From NCBI GenBank assembly GCA_021792365.1, contig JAJYUT010000002.1:702313-766312 (forward strand): a DNA stretch of 64,000 nt, written 5' to 3'. Both the position numbers and the translations under genes were made by a program. The notes under the pieces are model-generated. The model saw only the letters and a list, made by a program, of their open reading frames with translations, did not search any database and had not been told where the DNA came from. Of this stretch, positions 5,381-52,970 are shown one piece after another. Each line of letters opens with the position of its first letter. Position 1 is the stretch's first letter. The DNA comes from Pseudomonadota bacterium (GTDB lineage Bacteria > Pseudomonadota > Alphaproteobacteria > Dongiales > Dongiaceae).

Positions 5381-5402
5381 GGGAGCCGTGGGCCACGCTC
5401 CC
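5381..5402 (+). promoter_or_regulatory. Hairpin in the serC leader, possible serC RNA motif
   Basis: GGGAGC at 5381-5386 pairs with GCTCCC at 5397-5402, and GTG/CAC pair inside it, giving a strong stem 35 bases before the serC start. A TTGACA box at 5354-5359 lies just upstream, without a convincing -10 element. A conserved leader structure upstream of serC-serA operons is known in alphaproteobacteria (the serC motif). The position fits, but I cannot confirm that the consensus matches. Confidence 0.45.
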
Positions 5403-5437
5403 CCACCGGAGCGCGACGTTCTGGAAGGGACGCGAAT

Positions 5438-37654: not shown

Positions 37655-38509
37655 TCAGATGACGTTGCGCCAGGCCCGGCGCAACTCGTCGGCTGCTGCA
37701 GCTCGCAAGCCGCATGCCTCGACAGCACCGCGCGCGCCGGCGACAAGGGCGGCGTTGTCGGGTGCGACCGAGCCGTCGGGCTGCCAGAGATTGTTCTCGA
37801 ATCCCACCCGCATGTGACCGCCCAGCAACGCGGCGGCGGTGACACACGCGTTCTCCCGCGCTCCGAAGGCGCACACGGTCCAGTGCGCGAAGCGCGGCAT
37901 GTCCGGGGCCAGGAACGGCAGCAGATCCGAAGGCGACGACTTCTGGCCCGGGGCATAGCGCCCGAGCACATAGAGCACCGGCACGTCCTGGAACGGCACC
38001 AGGCCGCGCGCCTTGAGGCCCGCAAGCCTCACGGCTTCCTCGGGCGAATAGAGGATGATCTGCGGAATCACATCCTCCGTTCTCAGCCAGGAGAGGAAGT
38101 CGGCGAAAGCGGGCTCATGGCCCGCATCCGGCACGAGTTCCCGCAGTGCCAGCGACACCGCCTCGGGCCGCACCGCGCGCACGACCGCCATCTGCTCCTG
38201 CGCGCGATAGATGCCGAGCGCCTCGCTGGTGATCTGGATCACGACGCGCTCGCCGATGGCGGCCCGAATCCGAGCGATCGCCGTCCGATAGGCATCCGCA
38301 TCCAGCAGATGCCTGCCATCCCGATCGCGGACGTGGACATGGATCATGCACGCCCCGGCATCGAGACACGCAGCCGCCGTCGCCGCGATCTCCGCCGCGG
38401 ACAGCGGCAGCGCCGGATGGTCGGCCTTGGTGCGCCGGCCGCCATTCGGCGCGACGGCAATGGCAACCGGCGTGGCCTCGGAGCGTTCCGTTGCAGCAGG
38501 AAAAGCCAT
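37655..38509 (-). CDS. Beta-keto acid cleavage enzyme family protein (BKACE, DUF849)
   Basis: 284 residues from the ATG at 38509; an in-frame ATG at 38542 is an alternative. The TIM-barrel starts VAIAVAPNGGRRTKADHPALP, and the zinc pair H57-V-H59 lies in MIHVHVRDRDG, the BKACE signature. Characterised members condense a beta-keto acid with acetyl-CoA, giving acetoacetate and a CoA ester, for example in lysine fermentation and carnitine breakdown. Which beta-keto acid is used depends on pocket residues I cannot assign. It is divergent from the aminotransferase gene across a 107-base gap holding a predicted regulator site. Confidence 0.88.
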   Translation of the reverse strand: MAFPAATERSEATPVAIAVAPNGGRRTKADHPALPLSAAEIAATAAACLDAGACMIHVHVRDRDGRHLLDADAYRTAIARIRAAIGERVVIQITSEALGIYRAQEQMAVVRAVRPEAVSLALRELVPDAGHEPAFADFLSWLRTEDVIPQIILYSPEEAVRLAGLKARGLVPFQDVPVLYVLGRYAPGQKSSPSDLLPFLAPDMPRFAHWTVCAFGARENACVTAAALLGGHMRVGFENNLWQPDGSVAPDNAALVAGARGAVEACGLRAAAADELRRAWRNVI

Positions 38510-38542
38510 CTTTAACTCATTTGTTTCGTATGCCGTCGGCAT

Positions 38543-38558
38543 TGTAACACATGTTGCA
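38543..38558. promoter_or_regulatory. Predicted RpiR operator, site 1
   Basis: TGTAACACATGTTGCA is an inverted repeat with 12 of 16 symmetric positions, in the gap between the divergent BKACE and aminotransferase genes. It shares TGTAACA and a TT-CA right half with site 2 in front of the RpiR gene, which is why I assign it to that regulator. Confidence 0.5.
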
Positions 38559-38616
38559 TGGCCGGAGTGAAGCCTCTATCGTGCCGTTTTCCAGCGCGTT
38601 TCCGCCGAGGTGATCC

Positions 38617-39939
38617 ATGACGCGTATCCTGCACCGCCGGATCGGCGTGAGCCTGCCGACCGCCGTGGGGGGCAAGGGCATCTACCTGTTCGATCGGGAC
38701 GGCCGCTCCTACATCGATGCCTCCGGCGGTGCGGCGGTGTCCTGCCTCGGCCATGGTCATCCCGACGTCACCGCGGCGATTCACGCCCAGGCCGACCGGC
38801 TGGCCTATGCCCATACCAGTTTCTTCACCAACGAGCCGGCGGAGGCGCTGGCGGAGCGGCTGATCGCAGGCGCGCCGCAAGGGATCAGCCATGCCTATTT
38901 CGTCTCGGGCGGGTCGGAGGCGATCGAAGCGGCGCTCAAGATGGCGCGGCAGTACTTCGTCGAAATCGACCAGCCGCAGCGGCGCCACATCATCGCGCGC
39001 CGGCAGAGCTACCATGGTAACACGCTGGGCGCTCTTGCGGCCGGCGGCAACGAAATGCGCCGTGCCCAGTTTCGTCCGCTTCTGATCGAGACCCATCACA
39101 TCGCGCCCTGCTTCGCCTATCACTACCAGGAGCCCCGGGAAAGCGCGGAAGCCTATGCGGCCCGCGCCGCGCAGGCCTTGGAGGATAAGATCCTGGAGCT
39201 CGGCCCCGAGACTGTCCTTGCGTTCGTGGCCGAGCCGGTGGTGGGCGCAACGGCCGGCGCGGTGCCGCCGGTCACGGATTATTTCAAGCGCGTCCGCGCG
39301 ATCTGCGACCGCTACGGCATTCTCCTCATCCTCGATGAGGTGATGTGCGGGATGGGCCGGACCGGCACGTTGCACGCCTGCGAGCAGGACGGCATCGCTC
39401 CCGACCTGATGACGATCGCCAAGGGGCTTGGCGGGGGCTACCAGCCGATCGGCGCCGTCCTGCTCAGCGAACGGATATTCAACGCCTTCGCCCAGGGTTC
39501 CGGCGCCTTCCAGCACGGCCACACCTATATCTGCCACCCCATGGCGTGCGCGGCCGCGCTGGCCGTGCAGGAGGTCATGGCGCGGGACAACCTGCTCGCC
39601 AACGTCGTCGCCATGGGCGCTCATCTGGCGCGGCGGCTGAGCGACCGCTTCGGCAACCATCCCAATGTCGGCGACATCCGCGGCCGAGGGTTGTTGATGG
39701 GCGTCGAGCTGGTCGAGGACCGCTCGACGAAGGCACCCTTCGATCCGAAACGCAAGGTCAATGCCCGGATTAAACACGAAGCGATGGCGCGCGGTCTGCT
39801 GGTCTATCCCGGCGCGGGGACGATGGATGGCGTGCGCGGGGATCACGTGCTGCTCGCGCCGCCTTTCATCATCGATCAGGCGGCAATCGACCAGGTGGTG
39901 GAACGGCTGGGCGATGCCATCGACGCGGCCACCGCGTGA
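38617..39939 (+). CDS. Class III (omega-) aminotransferase
   Basis: 440 residues, fold-type I PLP enzyme. GGSEAIEAALKMARQ, D240 in LILDEVMCGMGRTG and the PLP lysine K269 in TIAKGLGGGYQPIGA define the class III family (omega-amino acid, beta-alanine, taurine and diamine transaminases). It moves an amino group to pyruvate or 2-oxoglutarate, leaving a keto acid or semialdehyde. With BKACE divergent from it, the product may be the beta-keto acid that BKACE cleaves. It converges with the RpiR gene, seven bases between stops. Confidence 0.9.
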   Translation: MTRILHRRIGVSLPTAVGGKGIYLFDRDGRSYIDASGGAAVSCLGHGHPDVTAAIHAQADRLAYAHTSFFTNEPAEALAERLIAGAPQGISHAYFVSGGSEAIEAALKMARQYFVEIDQPQRRHIIARRQSYHGNTLGALAAGGNEMRRAQFRPLLIETHHIAPCFAYHYQEPRESAEAYAARAAQALEDKILELGPETVLAFVAEPVVGATAGAVPPVTDYFKRVRAICDRYGILLILDEVMCGMGRTGTLHACEQDGIAPDLMTIAKGLGGGYQPIGAVLLSERIFNAFAQGSGAFQHGHTYICHPMACAAALAVQEVMARDNLLANVVAMGAHLARRLSDRFGNHPNVGDIRGRGLLMGVELVEDRSTKAPFDPKRKVNARIKHEAMARGLLVYPGAGTMDGVRGDHVLLAPPFIIDQAAIDQVVERLGDAIDAATA

Positions 39940-39946
39940 GGAGCGG

Positions 39947-40798
39947 TCAATCCGGCAGATAGGCGCCGAGGGCCCGCAGATCCGCCTCGATCTGGCGGAT
40001 GCGGGCCGCCGCGGCTGCACCTTGGCGCGCCAGCATCGTGGCTGCCAGGGCCTCCACGACCGCCACCGCTGCCGCGATCGAGGGGAAAAACGAGGGGCTT
40101 TCCGTCGAGAAGCGCAGGGTGACGGCGGCGTGACGGGAGATCGGAGCAGCCAGGCTGTCGGCCAGCACGACGATCGGAGCGCGATGCCGGCGCGCGGCCT
40201 GCGATACCTGCTCAAGTTCGCGCGAATAAGGCGCGAAGCCGATCATCACCACCGCATCCTTCTTGCCGATGGTGGCAAGCTCCGCCTCGAGCGCGCCACC
40301 GTCACCCCCCAGCAACGCGACATCGCGGCAGAACATACGGCAGAGATAGACCAGGGTGTGGGCGGGGGCGCGGCAGCTTCGGAACCCGGCGACCCGTATC
40401 CGCTGCGCCCGCTCCAGGATCGAGCAGGCCTTGGCAACTTCCCGGCTCTCGTTGCCGGCAGCCGTCAGGTTGGCTGCCGCCGCCTTCAGCGATTCCACGA
40501 ACACGGCCTGGGGCCCCCGCTGTACCAGCGCGTCGGCCCTGACGCCAAAGGGCGTGCCGCCGCCGCGCAGGCGGTTCTCGAATGGCCGCCGCAGGGCGGC
40601 CCAGTCATCGAAGCCAAGGCGCCGCGCGAGCCTCACGAAGGTAGTCGGCGTGACATCCGAGCGGGATGCCAGCACGCGCATCGAGACGAGCGCCACGTCG
40701 TCCGGATGGTCGACCAGGAATCGCGCCGCCTTGCGCAGTTCCGCGCTCAGCTCCGGAAGCTGCTCCACGACGTGCGCCTGAAGAGAGTCGTAGTTCAT
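39947..40798 (-). CDS. RpiR/MurR-family transcriptional regulator
   Basis: 283 residues. An N-terminal HTH_6 domain (LSAELRKAARFLVDHPDDVALVSM, then LASRSDVTPTTFVRLARRLGF) is followed by a C-terminal SIS domain (about 125-265: RIRVAGFRSCRAPAHTLVYL; VMIGFAPYSRELEQVSQAARR). RpiR regulators bind sugar phosphates or related metabolites with the SIS domain. The start at 40798 (MNYDSLQ) is preferred over an upstream ATG at 40828 because a predicted operator occupies the bases between. It lies between the aminotransferase and transporter genes and is probably their local regulator. Confidence 0.9.
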   Translation of the reverse strand: MNYDSLQAHVVEQLPELSAELRKAARFLVDHPDDVALVSMRVLASRSDVTPTTFVRLARRLGFDDWAALRRPFENRLRGGGTPFGVRADALVQRGPQAVFVESLKAAAANLTAAGNESREVAKACSILERAQRIRVAGFRSCRAPAHTLVYLCRMFCRDVALLGGDGGALEAELATIGKKDAVVMIGFAPYSRELEQVSQAARRHRAPIVVLADSLAAPISRHAAVTLRFSTESPSFFPSIAAAVAVVEALAATMLARQGAAAAARIRQIEADLRALGAYLPD

Positions 40799-40811
40799 GG
40801 TTCCACTCGCA

Positions 40812-40827
40812 TGTAACAAGTATTCCA
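40812..40827. promoter_or_regulatory. Predicted RpiR operator, site 2
   Basis: TGTAACAAGTATTCCA lies 14 bases upstream of the RpiR start and about 100 bases upstream of the divergent TAXI gene. It matches 13 of 16 positions of the degenerate pattern TGyAACAyrTGTTrCA derived from site 1. A TTGACT at 40833-40838 on the plus strand, possibly the -35 of the transporter operon, is only six bases away. Confidence 0.45.
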
Positions 40828-40930
40828 TCAGGTTGACTTTTTGCAACGATCGCATCATAGCTGGGAAAGTATTGACAGTAGGATAGTGAGCCGGCCCAAT
40901 CGGCTCTCGAGAGCACCAAGGGAGGATCAG

Positions 40931-41914
40931 ATGAAGCACAACCGAACGATCGCTCGGGGCGCGCAAGCCGCCGCCCTCTCCGCCGCGCTTCTGCTTGCGG
41001 ACGGCGCCGTCGCGCAGGAGCAGCAATTCGTCACGATCGGAACCGGCGGCGTCACCGGCGTCTATTACGCGGCGGGCGGCGCGATCTGTCGGCTGCTCAA
41101 CAAGGACCGCAAGACGCACGGGATCCGGTGCTCGGTGGAATCGACCGGCGGATCGTCCTTCAACGTCAATACCATCAAGGAAGGCGAGCTCGATTTCGGC
41201 ATGGCCCAGTCGGACGTGCAGTACAACGCCTTCAAGGGCGAGGAGAGCTTCAAGGAAGGCGGCGCCCACGCCGATCTGCGCGCGGTATTCTCCATCCACC
41301 CGGAGCCCTTCACGGTCCTGGCTCACCCCGATGCCGGCGTGACAACCTTCGAGGACCTGAAAGGCAAGCGGTTCAATGTGGGCAACCCCGGCTCCGGCAC
41401 GCGCGCGTCCATGGAGCGCCTGCTGGCGGCCATGGGCTGGTCGCTGCGCGATTTCTCGCTCGCCTCCGAGCTGAAGGCCGACGAGCATGGCCCCGCGCTC
41501 TGCGACCGCAAGATCGACGGCTTTTTCTATGGCGTCGGCCACCCCTCCGCCAATATCCAGGACCCGACAACCACCTGCGGCGCCAAGCTCGTTCCGCTGA
41601 CCGGCCCGGTCGTCGACAAGCTGGTGGCCGAGAACCCGTACTATGCCAAGGCGACGATCCCGGGCGGCCTGTACAACAATAATCCCGACGACACCGAGAC
41701 CTTCGGCGTGCTGGCGACCCTGGTCACCTCGGCCGACACCTCGGAAGAATCGGTCTATCAACTCGTGAAATCGGTGTTCGAGAACTTCGACGAGTTCAAG
41801 TCGCTGCACCCCGCCTTCGCCAATCTCGACCCGGCAAAGATGGTCAAGGATGGCCTCTCGGCCCCGCTCCATCCCGGCGCCGAGAAGTATTACAAGGAGA
41901 AGGGTTGGCTGTAA
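40931..41914 (+). CDS. TAXI-family TRAP transporter binding protein
   Basis: 327 residues with a Sec signal peptide (cleavage after DGAVA-Q, about residue 28). The mature part reads [25 protein letters not shown], the TAXI opening, followed by [29 protein letters not shown] proteins capture small carboxylates (glutamate and unknown acids) for TRAP permeases. A GGGAGGATCAG site precedes the ATG. It is 67 bases upstream of the fused permease gene and divergent from the RpiR gene. Confidence 0.92.
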
Positions 41915-41981
41915 GCTAGGCGATCCGACCAGGACCGGCAGGTTCGTGAACCGCCGGTCCCGTCCGGCTTCCGGAGGCGTC

Positions 41982-44573
41982 ATGAGCGGATCGAAGCAGC
42001 AGCCGGCCGACGTGAATCTCGAGCAGCTGGTCGCGGACACCGACACCGGGGGCCGCGCGCTCAAGGGGCCTGTCGGGACTTTTGTGCTCTGCATCGCGGT
42101 CGCCTGGGCGCTGTTCCAGCTCTGGTACGCGTCGCCCCTGCCCTTCATCATCGGCTTCGGGATTCTCAACGACACGGAAGCGCGCGCCATCCATCTCGGC
42201 TTCGCGCTGTTCCTGGCCTATGTCGCCTACCCGGCGTTCAAATCCTCGGCGCGCCACCGGGTGCCGGTGCTCGATTGGATTCTGGCGGCTCTGGGCGCAT
42301 TCGCCGGCGCCTACCTGTTCCTGTTCTACACGGAACTCTCCACCCGCCCCGGCCAGCCGACCACCCTCGATCTGCTGGCGGGCGGCGCGGGTATCCTCCT
42401 GCTGCTGGAAGCAACGCGGCGCGCGCTCGGCCTGCCGATGGTGGTCGTCGCGACCGTCTTCATCTTCTTCACCTTCGCCGGACCGTGGATGCCCGACGTT
42501 ATCCAGCACAAGGGCGCCTCGATCACCAAGTTCCTCAATCACCAATGGCTGACCACGGAAGGCGTGTTCGGCATCGCGCTCGGCGTCTCGACCAGCTTCG
42601 TCTTCCTGTTCGTGCTGTTCGGCACGCTGCTGGAGAAGGCAGGCGGCGGGAACTGGATGATGCAGATTTCCATCGCGCTGCTCGGCCATCTGCGCGGCGG
42701 TCCGGCCAAGGTTGCGGTCGTGTCCTCGGCGCTGAACGGCGTCGTGTCGGGCTCCTCGGTCTCGAACGTCGTATCGGGCGGCATCTTCACGATCCCGCTC
42801 ATGAAGCGCACCGGGCTTTCGGGCGTGAAGGCCGGCGCGATCGAAGCGTCGGCCTCGATCAACGGCCAGATCATGCCGCCGGTGATGGGAGCGGCCGCCT
42901 TCCTGATGGTCGAGTATGTCGGCATTCCCTACGCGGAGATCGTGAAGCACGCCGTGCTGCCTGCGGTCTTCTCCTACCTGGCGCTGCTCTACATGGTCCA
43001 TCTCGAAGCGCTCAAGATGGACTTGAAGCCGATCCCGCAGCCGGTCGTGCCGTGGAAAGAGCGGCTGCTGCGCATAGGGCTGGGGCTCTCCGGCACGATC
43101 GCCACGATCTGCATGCTCTATTACGGCATCCTGGCGATCGAAGCCGCCTTCGGGTTCGCCGCGCCCTGGCTGCTCGCCGCGCTCGGCCTCGGCCTCTACC
43201 TTGCGACGATCTGGTATGCGTCGCGATTTGCGGATCTCGCACTCGATGATCCAAACACGCCGATCCTGCATCTGCCGCGGGCCTGGGACGTCACGCGCAC
43301 GGGGCTCGACTTCCTGATCCCAATCGTGGTGCTGCTCTGGTGCCTGATGGTGGCGCAATTGTCGCCGGGGCTCTCCGCCTTCTGGGCGACCGCAACGATC
43401 ATCGGCATTCTCGTAACGCGCAAGCCGCTCATCGCGCTGTTCCGCAGGCAGTCACTGGCTCCGGCGATGCGGGGCGCGGCCTCCGATCTCATCGATGGCC
43501 TTGCCCTCGGCTCCCGCAACATGATCGGCATCGCGATCGCGACGGCGACCGCCGGCATCGTCGTCGGCACCATTACGCTGACCGGGCTCGGCCTGATGAT
43601 GACGGAGCTCGTCGAGTTCATCTCAGGCGGAAACGTCATCTTGATGCTGATCCTGATTGCCGCGATCAGCCTGGTGCTCGGGATGGGGATTCCCACCACC
43701 GCCAACTACATCCTGGTGGCGACGCTGATGGCGCCGGTCGTGGTCGATCTCGGGGCGCAGGCGGGGTTAGCCATTCCGCTGATCGCTGTCCATCTGTTCG
43801 TGTTCTACTTCGGGATCATGGCGGATATCACGCCGCCGGTCGGCCTTGCCAGCTTCGCCGCCGCCGCGATCTCAAAGGAGGATCCGATCGCCACCGGGTT
43901 CCAAGGTGCCATCTATTCGCTGCGCACCGCGATCCTGCCGTTCGTCTTCATCTTCAACCCGGCGATGCTGTTGATCGATACCCAGGGCTGGGGCCATACC
44001 ATCCTCGTGGCTACCGCATCGCTGATCGCGATCCTGCTGTTCTCCGCCGCCCTCATGAACTGGTTCGTCACGCGATCGCGGTTGTGGGAAAGCGCGGTCC
44101 TGCTGGTGGTCTGCTTCACGCTGTTCCGTCCGGATTGGTGGCTCAACCAAGTCTCGCCGCCCTCCGAAGAGGTCCCCGCCACCGAGTTCCTTGCAGCGGT
44201 CGAGCAGGCGCCGCCCGACGGGCGGGTGAATTTCGTCGTCGAGGGCATCGACCTCATGGGCGAGGATGTGCGCAAGACCGTCAGCCTCCGGCTCGGCGAG
44301 CCCGGCGATCCGATGCAGCGGCTGCGGGAAGCCGGCCTCACCATCATGCCGTCCGGCGACCGGCTGATGATCATGAACGTCGCCTTCGGCTCCTACGCCA
44401 AGCGCATCGGCCTCGACATGGGATACGATATTGTGGCGCTCGTGCGGAAGACGGACCAGCCATCGAGCGCGATCCCCATCGGCATCGCCCTCGCCGTGAC
44501 GGCCGGGATCGCCGCCCTGCAGTTCACCAGGCGGCGGAGTGCGGCAGGAGAACCGGCACGCGCCGGGAATTGA
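41982..44573 (+). CDS. Fused TRAP transporter permease with C-terminal DUF3394 domain
   Basis: 863 residues. The small (DctQ-like) and large (DctM-like) membrane parts are fused, as usual for TAXI systems: helices from about residue 30, then the DctM core (VLFGTLLEKAGGGNWMM, SGSSVSNVVSGG, GMGIPTTANYILVATLMAPVV, FYFGIMADITPPVGLASFAAAA). From about residue 700 comes a soluble-looking tail (EFLAAVEQAPPDGRVNFVVEGIDLMG region) and a last helix, recognisable as DUF3394, whose role is unknown. It imports the TAXI ligand using a sodium or proton gradient. The ATG at 41982 follows a CCGGAGGCG site. Confidence 0.92.
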   Translation: MSGSKQQPADVNLEQLVADTDTGGRALKGPVGTFVLCIAVAWALFQLWYASPLPFIIGFGILNDTEARAIHLGFALFLAYVAYPAFKSSARHRVPVLDWILAALGAFAGAYLFLFYTELSTRPGQPTTLDLLAGGAGILLLLEATRRALGLPMVVVATVFIFFTFAGPWMPDVIQHKGASITKFLNHQWLTTEGVFGIALGVSTSFVFLFVLFGTLLEKAGGGNWMMQISIALLGHLRGGPAKVAVVSSALNGVVSGSSVSNVVSGGIFTIPLMKRTGLSGVKAGAIEASASINGQIMPPVMGAAAFLMVEYVGIPYAEIVKHAVLPAVFSYLALLYMVHLEALKMDLKPIPQPVVPWKERLLRIGLGLSGTIATICMLYYGILAIEAAFGFAAPWLLAALGLGLYLATIWYASRFADLALDDPNTPILHLPRAWDVTRTGLDFLIPIVVLLWCLMVAQLSPGLSAFWATATIIGILVTRKPLIALFRRQSLAPAMRGAASDLIDGLALGSRNMIGIAIATATAGIVVGTITLTGLGLMMTELVEFISGGNVILMLILIAAISLVLGMGIPTTANYILVATLMAPVVVDLGAQAGLAIPLIAVHLFVFYFGIMADITPPVGLASFAAAAISKEDPIATGFQGAIYSLRTAILPFVFIFNPAMLLIDTQGWGHTILVATASLIAILLFSAALMNWFVTRSRLWESAVLLVVCFTLFRPDWWLNQVSPPSEEVPATEFLAAVEQAPPDGRVNFVVEGIDLMGEDVRKTVSLRLGEPGDPMQRLREAGLTIMPSGDRLMIMNVAFGSYAKRIGLDMGYDIVALVRKTDQPSSAIPIGIALAVTAGIAALQFTRRRSAAGEPARAGN

Positions 44574-44779
44574 GCGAGCGCGCAGCTTCGCAGATCGACG
44601 CACTCTTCACCGCCCCCGCAGCGAGCGGCCAGCTTGGAACCTGAGCCGGAAATAAGAGTTTCTTGGACGTTGCTCGAAGTGCAATCCGAAGAATGACCGT
44701 ATGACTCGGCGCATCCCGCGCACATGGCAGGGTGCGGGGCGCTCCTCGGCTAGTTGGAGCACAGCGAACGGAGACGTCG

Positions 44780-45556
44780 ATGGAAGACTTCATTCTGTTT
44801 CTGCTCGTCGGCTTCCTGGCCCAGATGATCGACGGTGCTCTTGGGATGGCTTATGGCGTCATTTCCTCTACCACGCTGCTCGCCTTCGGCGTGTCGCCGG
44901 CTCATGCATCTGCGGCGGTGCACGCAGCCGAAGTTTTCACGAGCGCAGCCGCCGGCTCCTCGCATCTCTATCATCGCAACATCGATTGGAAGCTGTTCTG
45001 GCGCCTGGCGCCCTTTGGCGTCCTGGGCGGTTGCACCGGAGCCTACGTGCTGACCGGCATTGATGCCGGTACCATCAAGCCGATCGTGACCGCCTATCTC
45101 GCGCTTGTCGGCGTATGGCTCGTCTTCCGGTCATTTCGAAAGATCCCCAGCAAGCCGGTGGCCCCTACCATTGTCGCGCCGCTCGGTGCCGCAGGCGGCT
45201 TTCTCGATGCCGCGGGCGGCGGTGGCTGGGGCCCGATCGTCACGACCGGTCTGCTTGGATTTGGCGGGACACCGCGTTACGTCATCGGCACAGTCAGCGC
45301 CAGCGAGTTCCTCATCACGCTTTCGGTATCAATTACATTCGCCGTGGCACTCGTCACCGGGCACTGGGCCGATGCCGGCGAGCCGACGCAGCACCTTGCT
45401 GCGGTCGCCGGCCTGGTCGTCGGAGGCATATTCGCAGCCCCGCTCGCCGGCTTCGTTGTCAAGACCCTGAAGGAGAAGCTGCTGCTCCGCCTCGTGGGCG
45501 CGCTGATTGTGCTTCTGGCAGGCTGGCAGACCGCACAGCAGTTGGCGCTGGTCTGA
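44780..45556 (+). CDS. TauE/SafE-family anion exporter-like protein
   Basis: 258 residues with about eight membrane helices and the two pseudo-repeat motifs of the family: FLAQMIDGALGMAYG near residue 14 and GGFLDAAGGGGWGPI near residue 137, plus GTVSASEFLIT. TauE/SafE proteins are linked to export of sulfite or uptake/export of sulfur-containing organic acids. It follows the TRAP permease by 206 bases, so it may be a separate unit. If it works with that locus, the imported compound could be a sulfonate. Confidence 0.88.
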   Translation: MEDFILFLLVGFLAQMIDGALGMAYGVISSTTLLAFGVSPAHASAAVHAAEVFTSAAAGSSHLYHRNIDWKLFWRLAPFGVLGGCTGAYVLTGIDAGTIKPIVTAYLALVGVWLVFRSFRKIPSKPVAPTIVAPLGAAGGFLDAAGGGGWGPIVTTGLLGFGGTPRYVIGTVSASEFLITLSVSITFAVALVTGHWADAGEPTQHLAAVAGLVVGGIFAAPLAGFVVKTLKEKLLLRLVGALIVLLAGWQTAQQLALV

Positions 45557-52895: not shown

Positions 52896-52970
52896 TGGTA
52901 GCGCCGGGCGGATTTGAACCACCGACCAAGGGATTATGATTCCCCTGCTCTACCGCTGAGCTACGGCGCC
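52896..52970 (-). tRNA. tRNA-Met (CAU), elongator type
   Basis: The minus strand folds into a full cloverleaf: acceptor GGCGCCG/CGGCGCT with a G-U end pair, D arm GCTCAGCGGTAGAGC, anticodon loop ATCATAA with CAU at its centre, and T arm with GGTTCAAATCC. CCA is encoded. The acceptor start GGCGCCG differs from the C-A mismatch of initiator tRNAs, so it is the elongator Met type; an Ile2 tRNA with modified CAU is less likely. Confidence 0.92.

Follow-up and report, generated by a model that had tools for sequence, protein, structure and literature searches.

We identified a conserved gene module in the stretch of DNA analysed here (the window, 64,000 nucleotides of a Dongiaceae alphaproteobacterium) and propose, at close to even probability, that it is a substrate-induced catabolic route for a glutamate-like amino acid, in which a zinc enzyme of the BKACE fold with an altered active site, called BKL here, would act independently of CoA. 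BKL is encoded at 37655-38509 on the minus strand (PF05853, Pfam E 5.4e-66); a longer open reading frame extends to 38542, and the start is probably at 38509 because Met12 is common to the window protein and three relatives. A class III aminotransferase follows at 38617-39939 on the plus strand (PF00202, E 2.1e-97) and belongs to the PRK07483 family (NCBIfam NF005685, 786.3 bits against a cut-off of 485). An RpiR-type regulator occupies 39947-40798 on the minus strand; its SIS domain scores over the cut-off, HTH_6 reaches 21.8 bits against a cut-off of 28.3 when scanned within a longer 747-aa frame, and the NCBIfam HexR/RpiR models match far under their cut-offs. Downstream on the plus strand are a TAXI solute receptor with a glutamate-type site (40931-41914; TIGR02122, 352.6 bits) and a fused TRAP permease (41982-44573; TIGR02123, 689.6 bits) with DctM and C-terminal DUF3394 domains. 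Pfam and NCBIfam matches and the coordinates thus agree with the preliminary description on the presence of a BKACE-family gene, the aminotransferase, RpiR and the TAXI-TRAP system. The assignment of the BKACE gene, given there as firm, holds for the fold and not for BKACE activity, as residues assigned to catalysis are replaced.

The module recurs in Dongia, Mesorhizobium, Microvirga, Sinorhizobium and other genera. Among 80 BKL loci, the aminotransferase was found at 63, an RpiR-type gene at 59 and a TAXI receptor at 38, as counted by tblastn or HMM searches and not from the gene models of a simple codon-score caller, which missed some genes. In Thalassospira the order RpiR-AT-BKL-TAXI-TRAP-Usp is colinear, and S. 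meliloti retains RpiR-AT-BKL while its TAXI (89% identical) and TRAP (78% identical) genes end about 14 kb off. An alternative importer, annotated as GlnHPQ, is present in Shinella, Paracoccus, R. leguminosarum and Pantoea. The aminotransferase occurs without TAXI at 26 of the 80 loci, 18 of which carry a C45-family gene; not one of the 80 holds both C45 and TAXI. Around the aminotransferase itself, an RpiR-type gene was located near 30 of 100 loci; this sample shares one locus with the BKL sample (L135, listed there as L080), and S. meliloti is in both.

To quantify the pairing of the two enzymes, we used a class-wide sample of 385 alphaproteobacterial genomes, 103 of which carry the aminotransferase and 56 BKL. 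Both were present in 49 genomes, where 15.0 would be expected by chance (hypergeometric p 1.5e-25, taking the genomes as independent). BKL lies within 3 kb of the aminotransferase in 42 of the 56, window included; 7 of the BKL genomes have no aminotransferase at the threshold used and 7 more have it elsewhere. In the opposite direction, 58 of the 100 aminotransferase loci lacked a BKL gene within 6.5 kb; 14 of these 100 stretches were shorter than 10 kb (100 of 107 loci were taken, leaving out the window's own and the six lowest-scoring). At some loci the aminotransferase also adjoins Mla-type transport genes. In an alignment of 116 aminotransferases, at least 97% have K269, which we take to be the PLP lysine. 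A carboxymuconolactone-decarboxylase-type protein was considered as a partner interchangeable with BKL, an idea that came from three of ten annotated plasmid regions (Pantoea, Acinetobacter and R. indigoferae); it was found at 0 of the 100 alphaproteobacterial loci, and the Pantoea protein scored under the Pfam cut-off, so the idea stays a lead.

The co-occurrence in 385 genomes, the recurrence in several genera and a conserved palindrome described below bear out the earlier proposal that these genes form one module. Soil and marine bacteria share this conserved and apparently undescribed gene set; among the papers listed by our searches of open-licence literature, none described it, in line with the preliminary description, which had not recognised it as a described pathway.

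We then compared the active site of BKL with canonical BKACE sequences, using 31 rows that came from the genome holding the window and from its family, outside the 72 other BKL loci, with one gene counted twice (L005 and L024). In the alignment, the zinc ligands H68, H70 and E249 are present in 73 of 73 members of the BKL cluster, a set built on the gene models of the codon-score caller, which missed some genes; Arg245 is also kept. Where each of the 31 canonical rows has the catalytic Glu, 73 of 73 BKL members have Ile163, and the Asp that follows the zinc Glu, again found in 31 of 31 canonical rows, is Asn250 in all 73. Ile163 was also present in all 47 clade members of a second sample in which the position was aligned (49 matches, with L181 being a canonical BKACE and L233 misaligned). 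All 73 members have Glu107 and Glu135 in place of a canonical Gly and a canonical Ser/Thr, respectively, Arg36 is present in 67 of the 73 and in 47 of 49 rows of the second sample, and most rows have Glu230 instead of the canonical Gln, as does one canonical row. The BKL clade is monophyletic (support 0.88; 66 versus 12 sequences). The closest fold to the BKL AlphaFold model, which has a mean pLDDT of 89.5, is Kce (2y7e); pLDDT falls below 50 at residues 34-44, the loop that holds Arg36.

BKL represents a distinct clade whose chemistry is probably unusual for the family. Acetyl-CoA-dependent cleavage, the step that had been assigned to the BKACE gene on a beta-keto acid, appears doubtful because the clade has lost both the catalytic Glu and the Asp that follows the zinc-binding Glu. 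With this pair lost, and Glu107, Glu135 and mostly Arg36 gained, a CoA-independent step seems likelier than a retro-Claisen reaction. The catalytic base may have relocated to Glu107 or Glu135, and Arg36 suggests that the substrate carries an extra anion.

In lysine fermentation, Kce works together with an acyl-CoA beta-transaminase. This pathway resembles the module in combining an aminotransferase with a BKACE-fold enzyme, whereas its BKACE belongs to another clade, and the importer and RpiR control are features of the window module. Kce and BKACE15 (PF05853; 2Y7D-G, 8RIP, 9HNF) share with BKL the TIM barrel, the His-x-His and Glu zinc ligands and the conserved Arg. Ile163 of BKL takes the position of E171 in Paracoccus BKACE15, and a Leu mutant of this catalytic Glu is inactive (PMC11961710). 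Groups G6 and G7 of Bastard et al. are family members reported without cleavage activity, G6 decarboxylating beta-ketoglutarate and G7 showing no activity on the panel, as summarised in PMC4922564. BsfD of flavophos biosynthesis (PMC12871164) also departs from BKACE chemistry. It carries Phe in place of a Tyr found in Kce and BKACE15, while BKL keeps this residue (Tyr165) and has lost the Glu/Asp pair. The Tyr165 position is a poor marker, since Phe is found there in 24 of the 31 canonical rows.

The TAXI receptor scored 402 bits against VcGluP (8s4j) and 532 bits against 9oz4, a closely related TAXI protein of solved structure, and was 59% identical to VcGluP in the Foldseek alignment; 9oz4 was absent from the 50 fold matches listed. 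Residues V44, Y45, Y46, S75, Q93, H123, E125, G156, Y200 and G203 were invariant in 21 aligned TAXI receptors picked by length, and the key VcGluP residues Y45 and Q93 were found in 56 and 53, respectively, of 59 TAXI matches (104 loci, controls included). The VcGluP contacts Y45, S75, Q93, H123, E125 and Y200 (8S4J, 9IBO; PMC11574862) are kept in the window receptor, whereas S40G, D157T and M201G leave the VcGluP pocket incomplete. The features of a glutamate-type TAXI-TRAP system, a TAXI receptor and a fused permease with a C-terminal domain, are both present. A glutamate-like amino acid is the best reading of the ligand from receptor sequence; given the three differences from VcGluP, it may be a compound other than L-glutamate itself.

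A 16-base palindrome, TGTAACACATGTTGCA, lies between BKL and the aminotransferase (38543-38558) and is a candidate RpiR operator. Nowhere else in the 5.43 Mb genome is the degenerate palindrome matched exactly. The identical 16 bases occur in a Dongia locus (L037), equivalent sites occur in L051 and L057, and sites with at most one mismatch are found near the BKL start at 25 of the 72 other BKL loci, where 0.11 sites were expected in the 290 bases tested, with the rest of the loci themselves as background and gene starts taken from the codon-score caller. A weaker copy with two mismatches lies between RpiR and TAXI (40812-40827), and a related sequence with two to three mismatches is present in the four loci compared; two-mismatch matches showed no excess over the control genome-wide. 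Ahead of other genes, counted on the gene models of the codon-score caller, the palindrome was found at 1 of 40 TAXI, 0 of 16 glnH, 0 of 20 C45 and 0 of 11 second RpiR genes, and it was not found ahead of the separate S. meliloti TAXI. We infer that the palindrome separating BKL from the aminotransferase is probably a binding site of RpiR, which would control both genes.

The gene for a TauE/SafE-family membrane protein (44780-45556, plus strand; PF01925, E 9.8e-35) adjoins the module 0.2 kb downstream of TRAP and probably lies outside it. Its membership had been considered earlier, together with an aminated alkyl sulfonate as substrate, and neither idea fared well: a two-sequence profile matched in 3 of 195 related stretches, all from S. 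meliloti, and in 0 of the 192 others, the Dongia locus included. A tblastn search with the window protein (E 1e-4) gave no match in 194 related stretches and missed the S. meliloti TauE-family gene as well, and the TRAP-TauE gap, which had no terminator or promoter by consensus scan and no unusual RNA fold, is uninformative. A sulfonate pathway with TauE exporting sulfite could draw on a few observations. In S. meliloti, the module-type TAXI-TRAP is followed 4 kb downstream by a TauE-family gene (PF01925, 101 bits). In L039, a molybdopterin oxidoreductase with a Mo-co dimerisation domain, a sulfite-oxidase-like architecture, is encoded upstream of BKL at a distance of about 3 kb. Limimaricola carries, 7-8 kb from its aminotransferase gene, a gene for phosphate acetyltransferase and one annotated as a sulfate exporter, and the TAXI receptor has a weak SsuA-like score (22.3 bits, cut-off 163.5). 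Such sulfur-type neighbours are few, however, the receptor is of the glutamate type, and no desulfonating enzyme was found among the module genes (Pfam) or the part of the neighbour proteins scanned. The sulfonate substrate is thus weakly supported at best; we regard it as very improbable, and less likely than a glutamate-like amino acid.

Other readings keep the module and change its chemistry. BKL could be a true BKACE that cleaves the beta-keto acid from the aminotransferase with acetyl-CoA into acetoacetate and an acyl-CoA, as its fold, zinc ligands and Arg245 would allow. A 3-hydroxybutyrate-dehydrogenase-like SDR, which could handle acetoacetate, adjoins BKL in L106 and the aminotransferase in L133, genes annotated as acetyl-CoA acetyltransferase and acyl-CoA synthetase lie about 6-9 kb from the aminotransferase in Paracoccus pantotrophus, and a route of beta-alanine transaminase and BKACE functions in engineered E. 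coli (PMC11961710). We nevertheless consider this reading unlikely, given the clade-wide Ile and Asn at the catalytic positions; moreover, no acetoacetate-activating family was found among the recurrent neighbour clusters (10 of 32 non-core clusters scanned). It is improbable, in our estimate, that the module degrades beta-alanine or its N-methylated forms, with the aminotransferase yielding malonate semialdehyde and BKL removing it. Malonate semialdehyde is a substrate for more than 20 of 124 BKACEs (PMC11961710), a sarcosine/dimethylglycine-dehydrogenase-like gene is near the aminotransferase and BKL at 5 of 100 loci, with a sixth such gene (43% identity) lying about 4 kb off in L136, and a DMSP-lyase-family cupin lies upstream of BKL in L039 (the same locus as L118), but both the glutamate-type receptor site and the extra substrate anion suggested by Arg36 speak against this. 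The many aminotransferase loci without BKL, and those beside Mla-type genes, would suit mere co-regulation of separate routes, e.g., glutamate uptake for osmoadaptation and an unrelated aminotransferase; colinearity repeated in distant genera and the strong co-occurrence make this quite improbable. Carnitine, ectoine and hydroxyproline, raised as substrates by neighbours or family, found no direct support and were set aside.

In the favoured catabolic route for a glutamate-like amino acid, TAXI-TRAP would import the substrate, as receptor similarity suggests, and the PRK07483 aminotransferase, going by its family, would turn it into a keto acid by removing its amino group. Gene pairing points to BKL as acting on this product, perhaps by decarboxylation or by retro-aldol or hydrolytic cleavage of a dicarboxylic keto acid without CoA, and RpiR on the palindrome would govern BKL and the aminotransferase. 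Of the path outlined in the preliminary description, this keeps importer, aminotransferase, BKACE-fold enzyme and RpiR in one catabolic module and gives up acetyl-CoA cleavage and the sulfonate. It is tempting to speculate, although we think it rather unlikely in this specific form, that the substrate is beta-glutamate (3-aminoglutarate), taken up by TAXI or GlnHPQ and converted by the aminotransferase to 3-oxoglutarate, which BKL would decarboxylate or split with Arg36 holding the second carboxylate. In the ABC variants, the C45-family hydrolase could free beta-glutamate from its amide. In the marine ammonia-oxidising archaeon Nitrosopumilus maritimus, no identified metabolite is more abundant than beta-glutamate, at 730 mM (PMC8269262). 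Among the papers listed by a literature search, none described a catabolic pathway for it, which is weak evidence.

These findings cast doubt on '3-keto-5-aminohexanoate cleavage protein', the automatic name under which BKL genes appear in public records. If the substrate is beta-glutamate, the module would identify consumers of an osmolyte found in both methanogens and ammonia-oxidising archaea, and would itself be a sink for this major archaeal osmolyte.

The candidate catabolic locus lies within a 5.43 Mb genome (window G000:C21:702313-766312) and comprises genes for BKL (37655-38509, minus strand), a BKACE-fold protein with an altered active site, a class III aminotransferase of the PRK07483 family (38617-39939, plus), a putative RpiR regulator (39947-40798, minus), a TAXI solute receptor (40931-41914, plus), a fused TRAP permease (41982-44573, plus) and a TauE-like protein (44780-45556, plus). 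From these strands, BKL and the aminotransferase form a divergent pair, as do RpiR and TAXI. The window also carries a serC leader RNA at 5386-5437 (plus strand; RF00517, 54.4 bits, gathering threshold 35) and a tRNA-Met at 52896-52970 (minus).

The genome encodes six PF05853 proteins, among which the window copy has the lowest score (223 bits versus 327-364 bits). The AlphaFold model of BKL (mean pLDDT 89.5, with residues 34-44 below 50) gave as its best structural match Kce, a known beta-keto acid cleavage enzyme. We compared 73 members of the BKL clade with 31 canonical rows, taken from the genome that carries the window and from its family. The zinc ligands H68, H70 and E249 are common to both, as is R245, whereas position 163 is Ile in 73/73 clade members and Glu in 31/31 canonical rows; further exchanges between clade and canonical rows occur at positions 161 (Gln/Glu), 250 (Asn/Asp), 107 (Glu/Gly) and 135 (Glu versus Ser/Thr). 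A second sample covered six annotated plasmid regions as well as aminotransferase loci. It contained one canonical BKACE and 48 members of the clade, of which all 47 in which the position aligned have Ile163, 48 have Glu107 and 47 have Arg36. The clade is monophyletic with a support of 0.88 (FastTree; 66 clade and 12 canonical sequences). Position 36 aligns with Glu14 of Kce, which we take to be a contact for the amino group of the substrate; an Arg here would suit an anion, although in the model it falls in the low-confidence loop. Aligned through Kce, position 163 corresponds to E171 of BKACE15; PMC11961710 describes this enzyme as inactive when Leu replaces the Glu, and relates that earlier work credited the Arg equivalent to R245, retained in BKL, as the base. 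The fold and zinc ligands bear out the BKACE family assignment of the preliminary description, but its acetyl-CoA-dependent cleavage becomes doubtful with Ile in place of the catalytic Glu. PF05853 groups that are not BKACEs are on record, one of which decarboxylates beta-ketoglutarate (PMC4922564), as is a family member with divergent chemistry (PMC12871164).

Whether these genes form a module or meet by chance was assessed by searching separately for each protein across 385 alphaproteobacterial genomes, so that loci were not chosen through BKL alone. Matches were found in 103 genomes for the aminotransferase (E 1e-120), 56 for BKL (E 1e-35) and 86 for TAXI (E 1e-90). BKL and the aminotransferase share 49 genomes against 15.0 expected (p 1.5e-25, a statistic that ignores relatedness), and, counting the window, BKL lies within 3 kb of the aminotransferase in 42/56 and within 8 kb of TAXI in 28/56, which supports the earlier view that the aminotransferase and the BKACE-family gene belong together. 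Counting against a module, 100 aminotransferase loci divide into 32 with BKL and TAXI, 10 with BKL alone, 17 with TAXI alone and 41 with neither, and an RpiR match is close to 30 of them. Among the best 80 of 429 confirmed BKL stretches, the aminotransferase is present at 63, an RpiR gene at 59, and TAXI and TRAP at 38 each. A C45-family gene, accompanied by a GlnHPQ-type ABC importer, occurs in 18 of the 26 loci in this sample with the aminotransferase and without TAXI; none of its 19 C45 loci also has TAXI. In Thalassospira marina, RpiR, aminotransferase, BKL, TAXI, TRAP and a universal stress protein follow in a single line. In Sinorhizobium (S.) meliloti the RpiR-aminotransferase-BKL trio is close to hydroxyproline genes, and TAXI (89% identical) and TRAP (78% identical) end approximately 14 kb from it. 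A second aminotransferase of the family in the window's genome (L225, G000:C21:989274-1004578; 55% identity) adjoins a gene that resembles those for Mla-type ABC ATPases, and Mla-type genes repeatedly adjoin PRK07483-type aminotransferases in other Alphaproteobacteria. On the E. coli plasmid pBH100alpha (L125), insertion sequences flank a module-related RpiR-aminotransferase pair, with genes for tetracycline and aminoglycoside resistance close by.

Between BKL and the aminotransferase sits a palindrome, TGTAACACATGTTGCA (38543-38558), which is the single exact match of TGYAACANNTGTTRCA in the whole genome; allowing up to two mismatches gave no more hits than the control (20 versus 33 for the backward-read pattern). 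The identical 16 bases occur in Dongia (L037), and two Mesorhizobium loci carry TGTAACATATGTTGCA. Within 290 bases around the BKL start, 25/72 other BKL loci carry a site that departs from the pattern at no more than one position (0.11 sites expected) and 40/72 one that departs at no more than two (0.20 expected). Sites upstream of other genes are fewer (TAXI 1/40, aminotransferase 3/56, glnH 0/16, C45 0/20, second RpiR 0/11), and the stretch carrying the separate S. meliloti TAXI has none. The window and three relatives also have a weaker copy, with two to three mismatches, in the gap that separates RpiR from TAXI. We infer that RpiR binds the candidate site at 38543-38558. On a Rhizobium indigoferae plasmid (L128), one-mismatch palindromes upstream of an RpiR-linked aminotransferase, an ABC importer and a CocE-type hydrolase suggest a wider regulon.

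The TAXI receptor aligns structurally with the glutamate receptor VcGluP (8s4j, 9ibo) at 59% identity, and scores 402 bits against 8s4j. With the glutamate contacts of VcGluP set out in PMC11574862 as reference, S40, D157 and M201 are changed in module receptors; across 21 of these, selected by their length, V44, Y45, Y46, S75, Q93, H123, E125, G156, Y200 and G203 never vary. Of 59 receptor matches at 104 loci (the 100 aminotransferase loci plus four added), 56 retain Y45, 53 Q93, 58 E125 and 27 Y200. Y45 and Q93 are by themselves no proof, since 78% and 54% of the TAXI sequences in PMC11574862 have them, and 2-oxoglutarate and phthalate are also described as TAXI ligands (PMC12344293). Another TAXI of the genome (L238) is without Q93, H123 and E125, and a third (L240) was missed by the receptor profile. 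A very close relative of the window TAXI has a structure in the PDB (9OZ4).

In the proposed pathway, a glutamate-like amino acid would enter the cell and be transaminated to a keto acid, which would be processed by BKL, a zinc enzyme probably no longer using acetyl-CoA. Beta-glutamate, which is abundant in Nitrosopumilus (PMC8269262), is an unlikely substrate in our estimate, even though it would fit all three parts: the receptor, because it has two carboxylates and one amino group; the BKACE-fold enzyme, because its beta-amino group would yield a beta-keto dicarboxylate; and Arg36. Against it, the aminotransferase has different neighbours at other loci. A sarcosine/dimethylglycine-dehydrogenase-like gene lies near the aminotransferase and BKL at five loci (L173, L178, L199, L201, L203), and at L039, which is one locus with L118 and lacks the aminotransferase, a DMSP-lyase-family cupin is directly upstream of BKL and TAXI-TRAP and a molybdopterin oxidoreductase is close to BKL. 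In Limimaricola, a phosphate acetyltransferase and an annotated sulfate exporter lie 7-8 kb from the aminotransferase. Such dehydrogenase, cupin and sulfur-type genes hint at other substrates.

The TauE-like protein, if it belonged to the locus, had been taken to make a sulfonate a candidate substrate. Its sequence had no tblastn match at E 1e-4 among 194 stretches, in a search too narrow to detect every member of the family, as it missed a gene assigned to TauE by Pfam that lies 4 kb past the S. meliloti TAXI-TRAP on its downstream side. A two-sequence profile (window and S. meliloti) found among 195 stretches only the S. meliloti gene, in three overlapping or same-species stretches. TauE is probably, though not certainly, outside the module. 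The S. meliloti gene (L235, 15014-15721; L123, 5014-5721) is accompanied by an amidohydrolase gene.

Every protein family in the module is already known. The gene combination, the non-canonical clade and the palindrome had no description among the matches listed for the open-licence papers searched.
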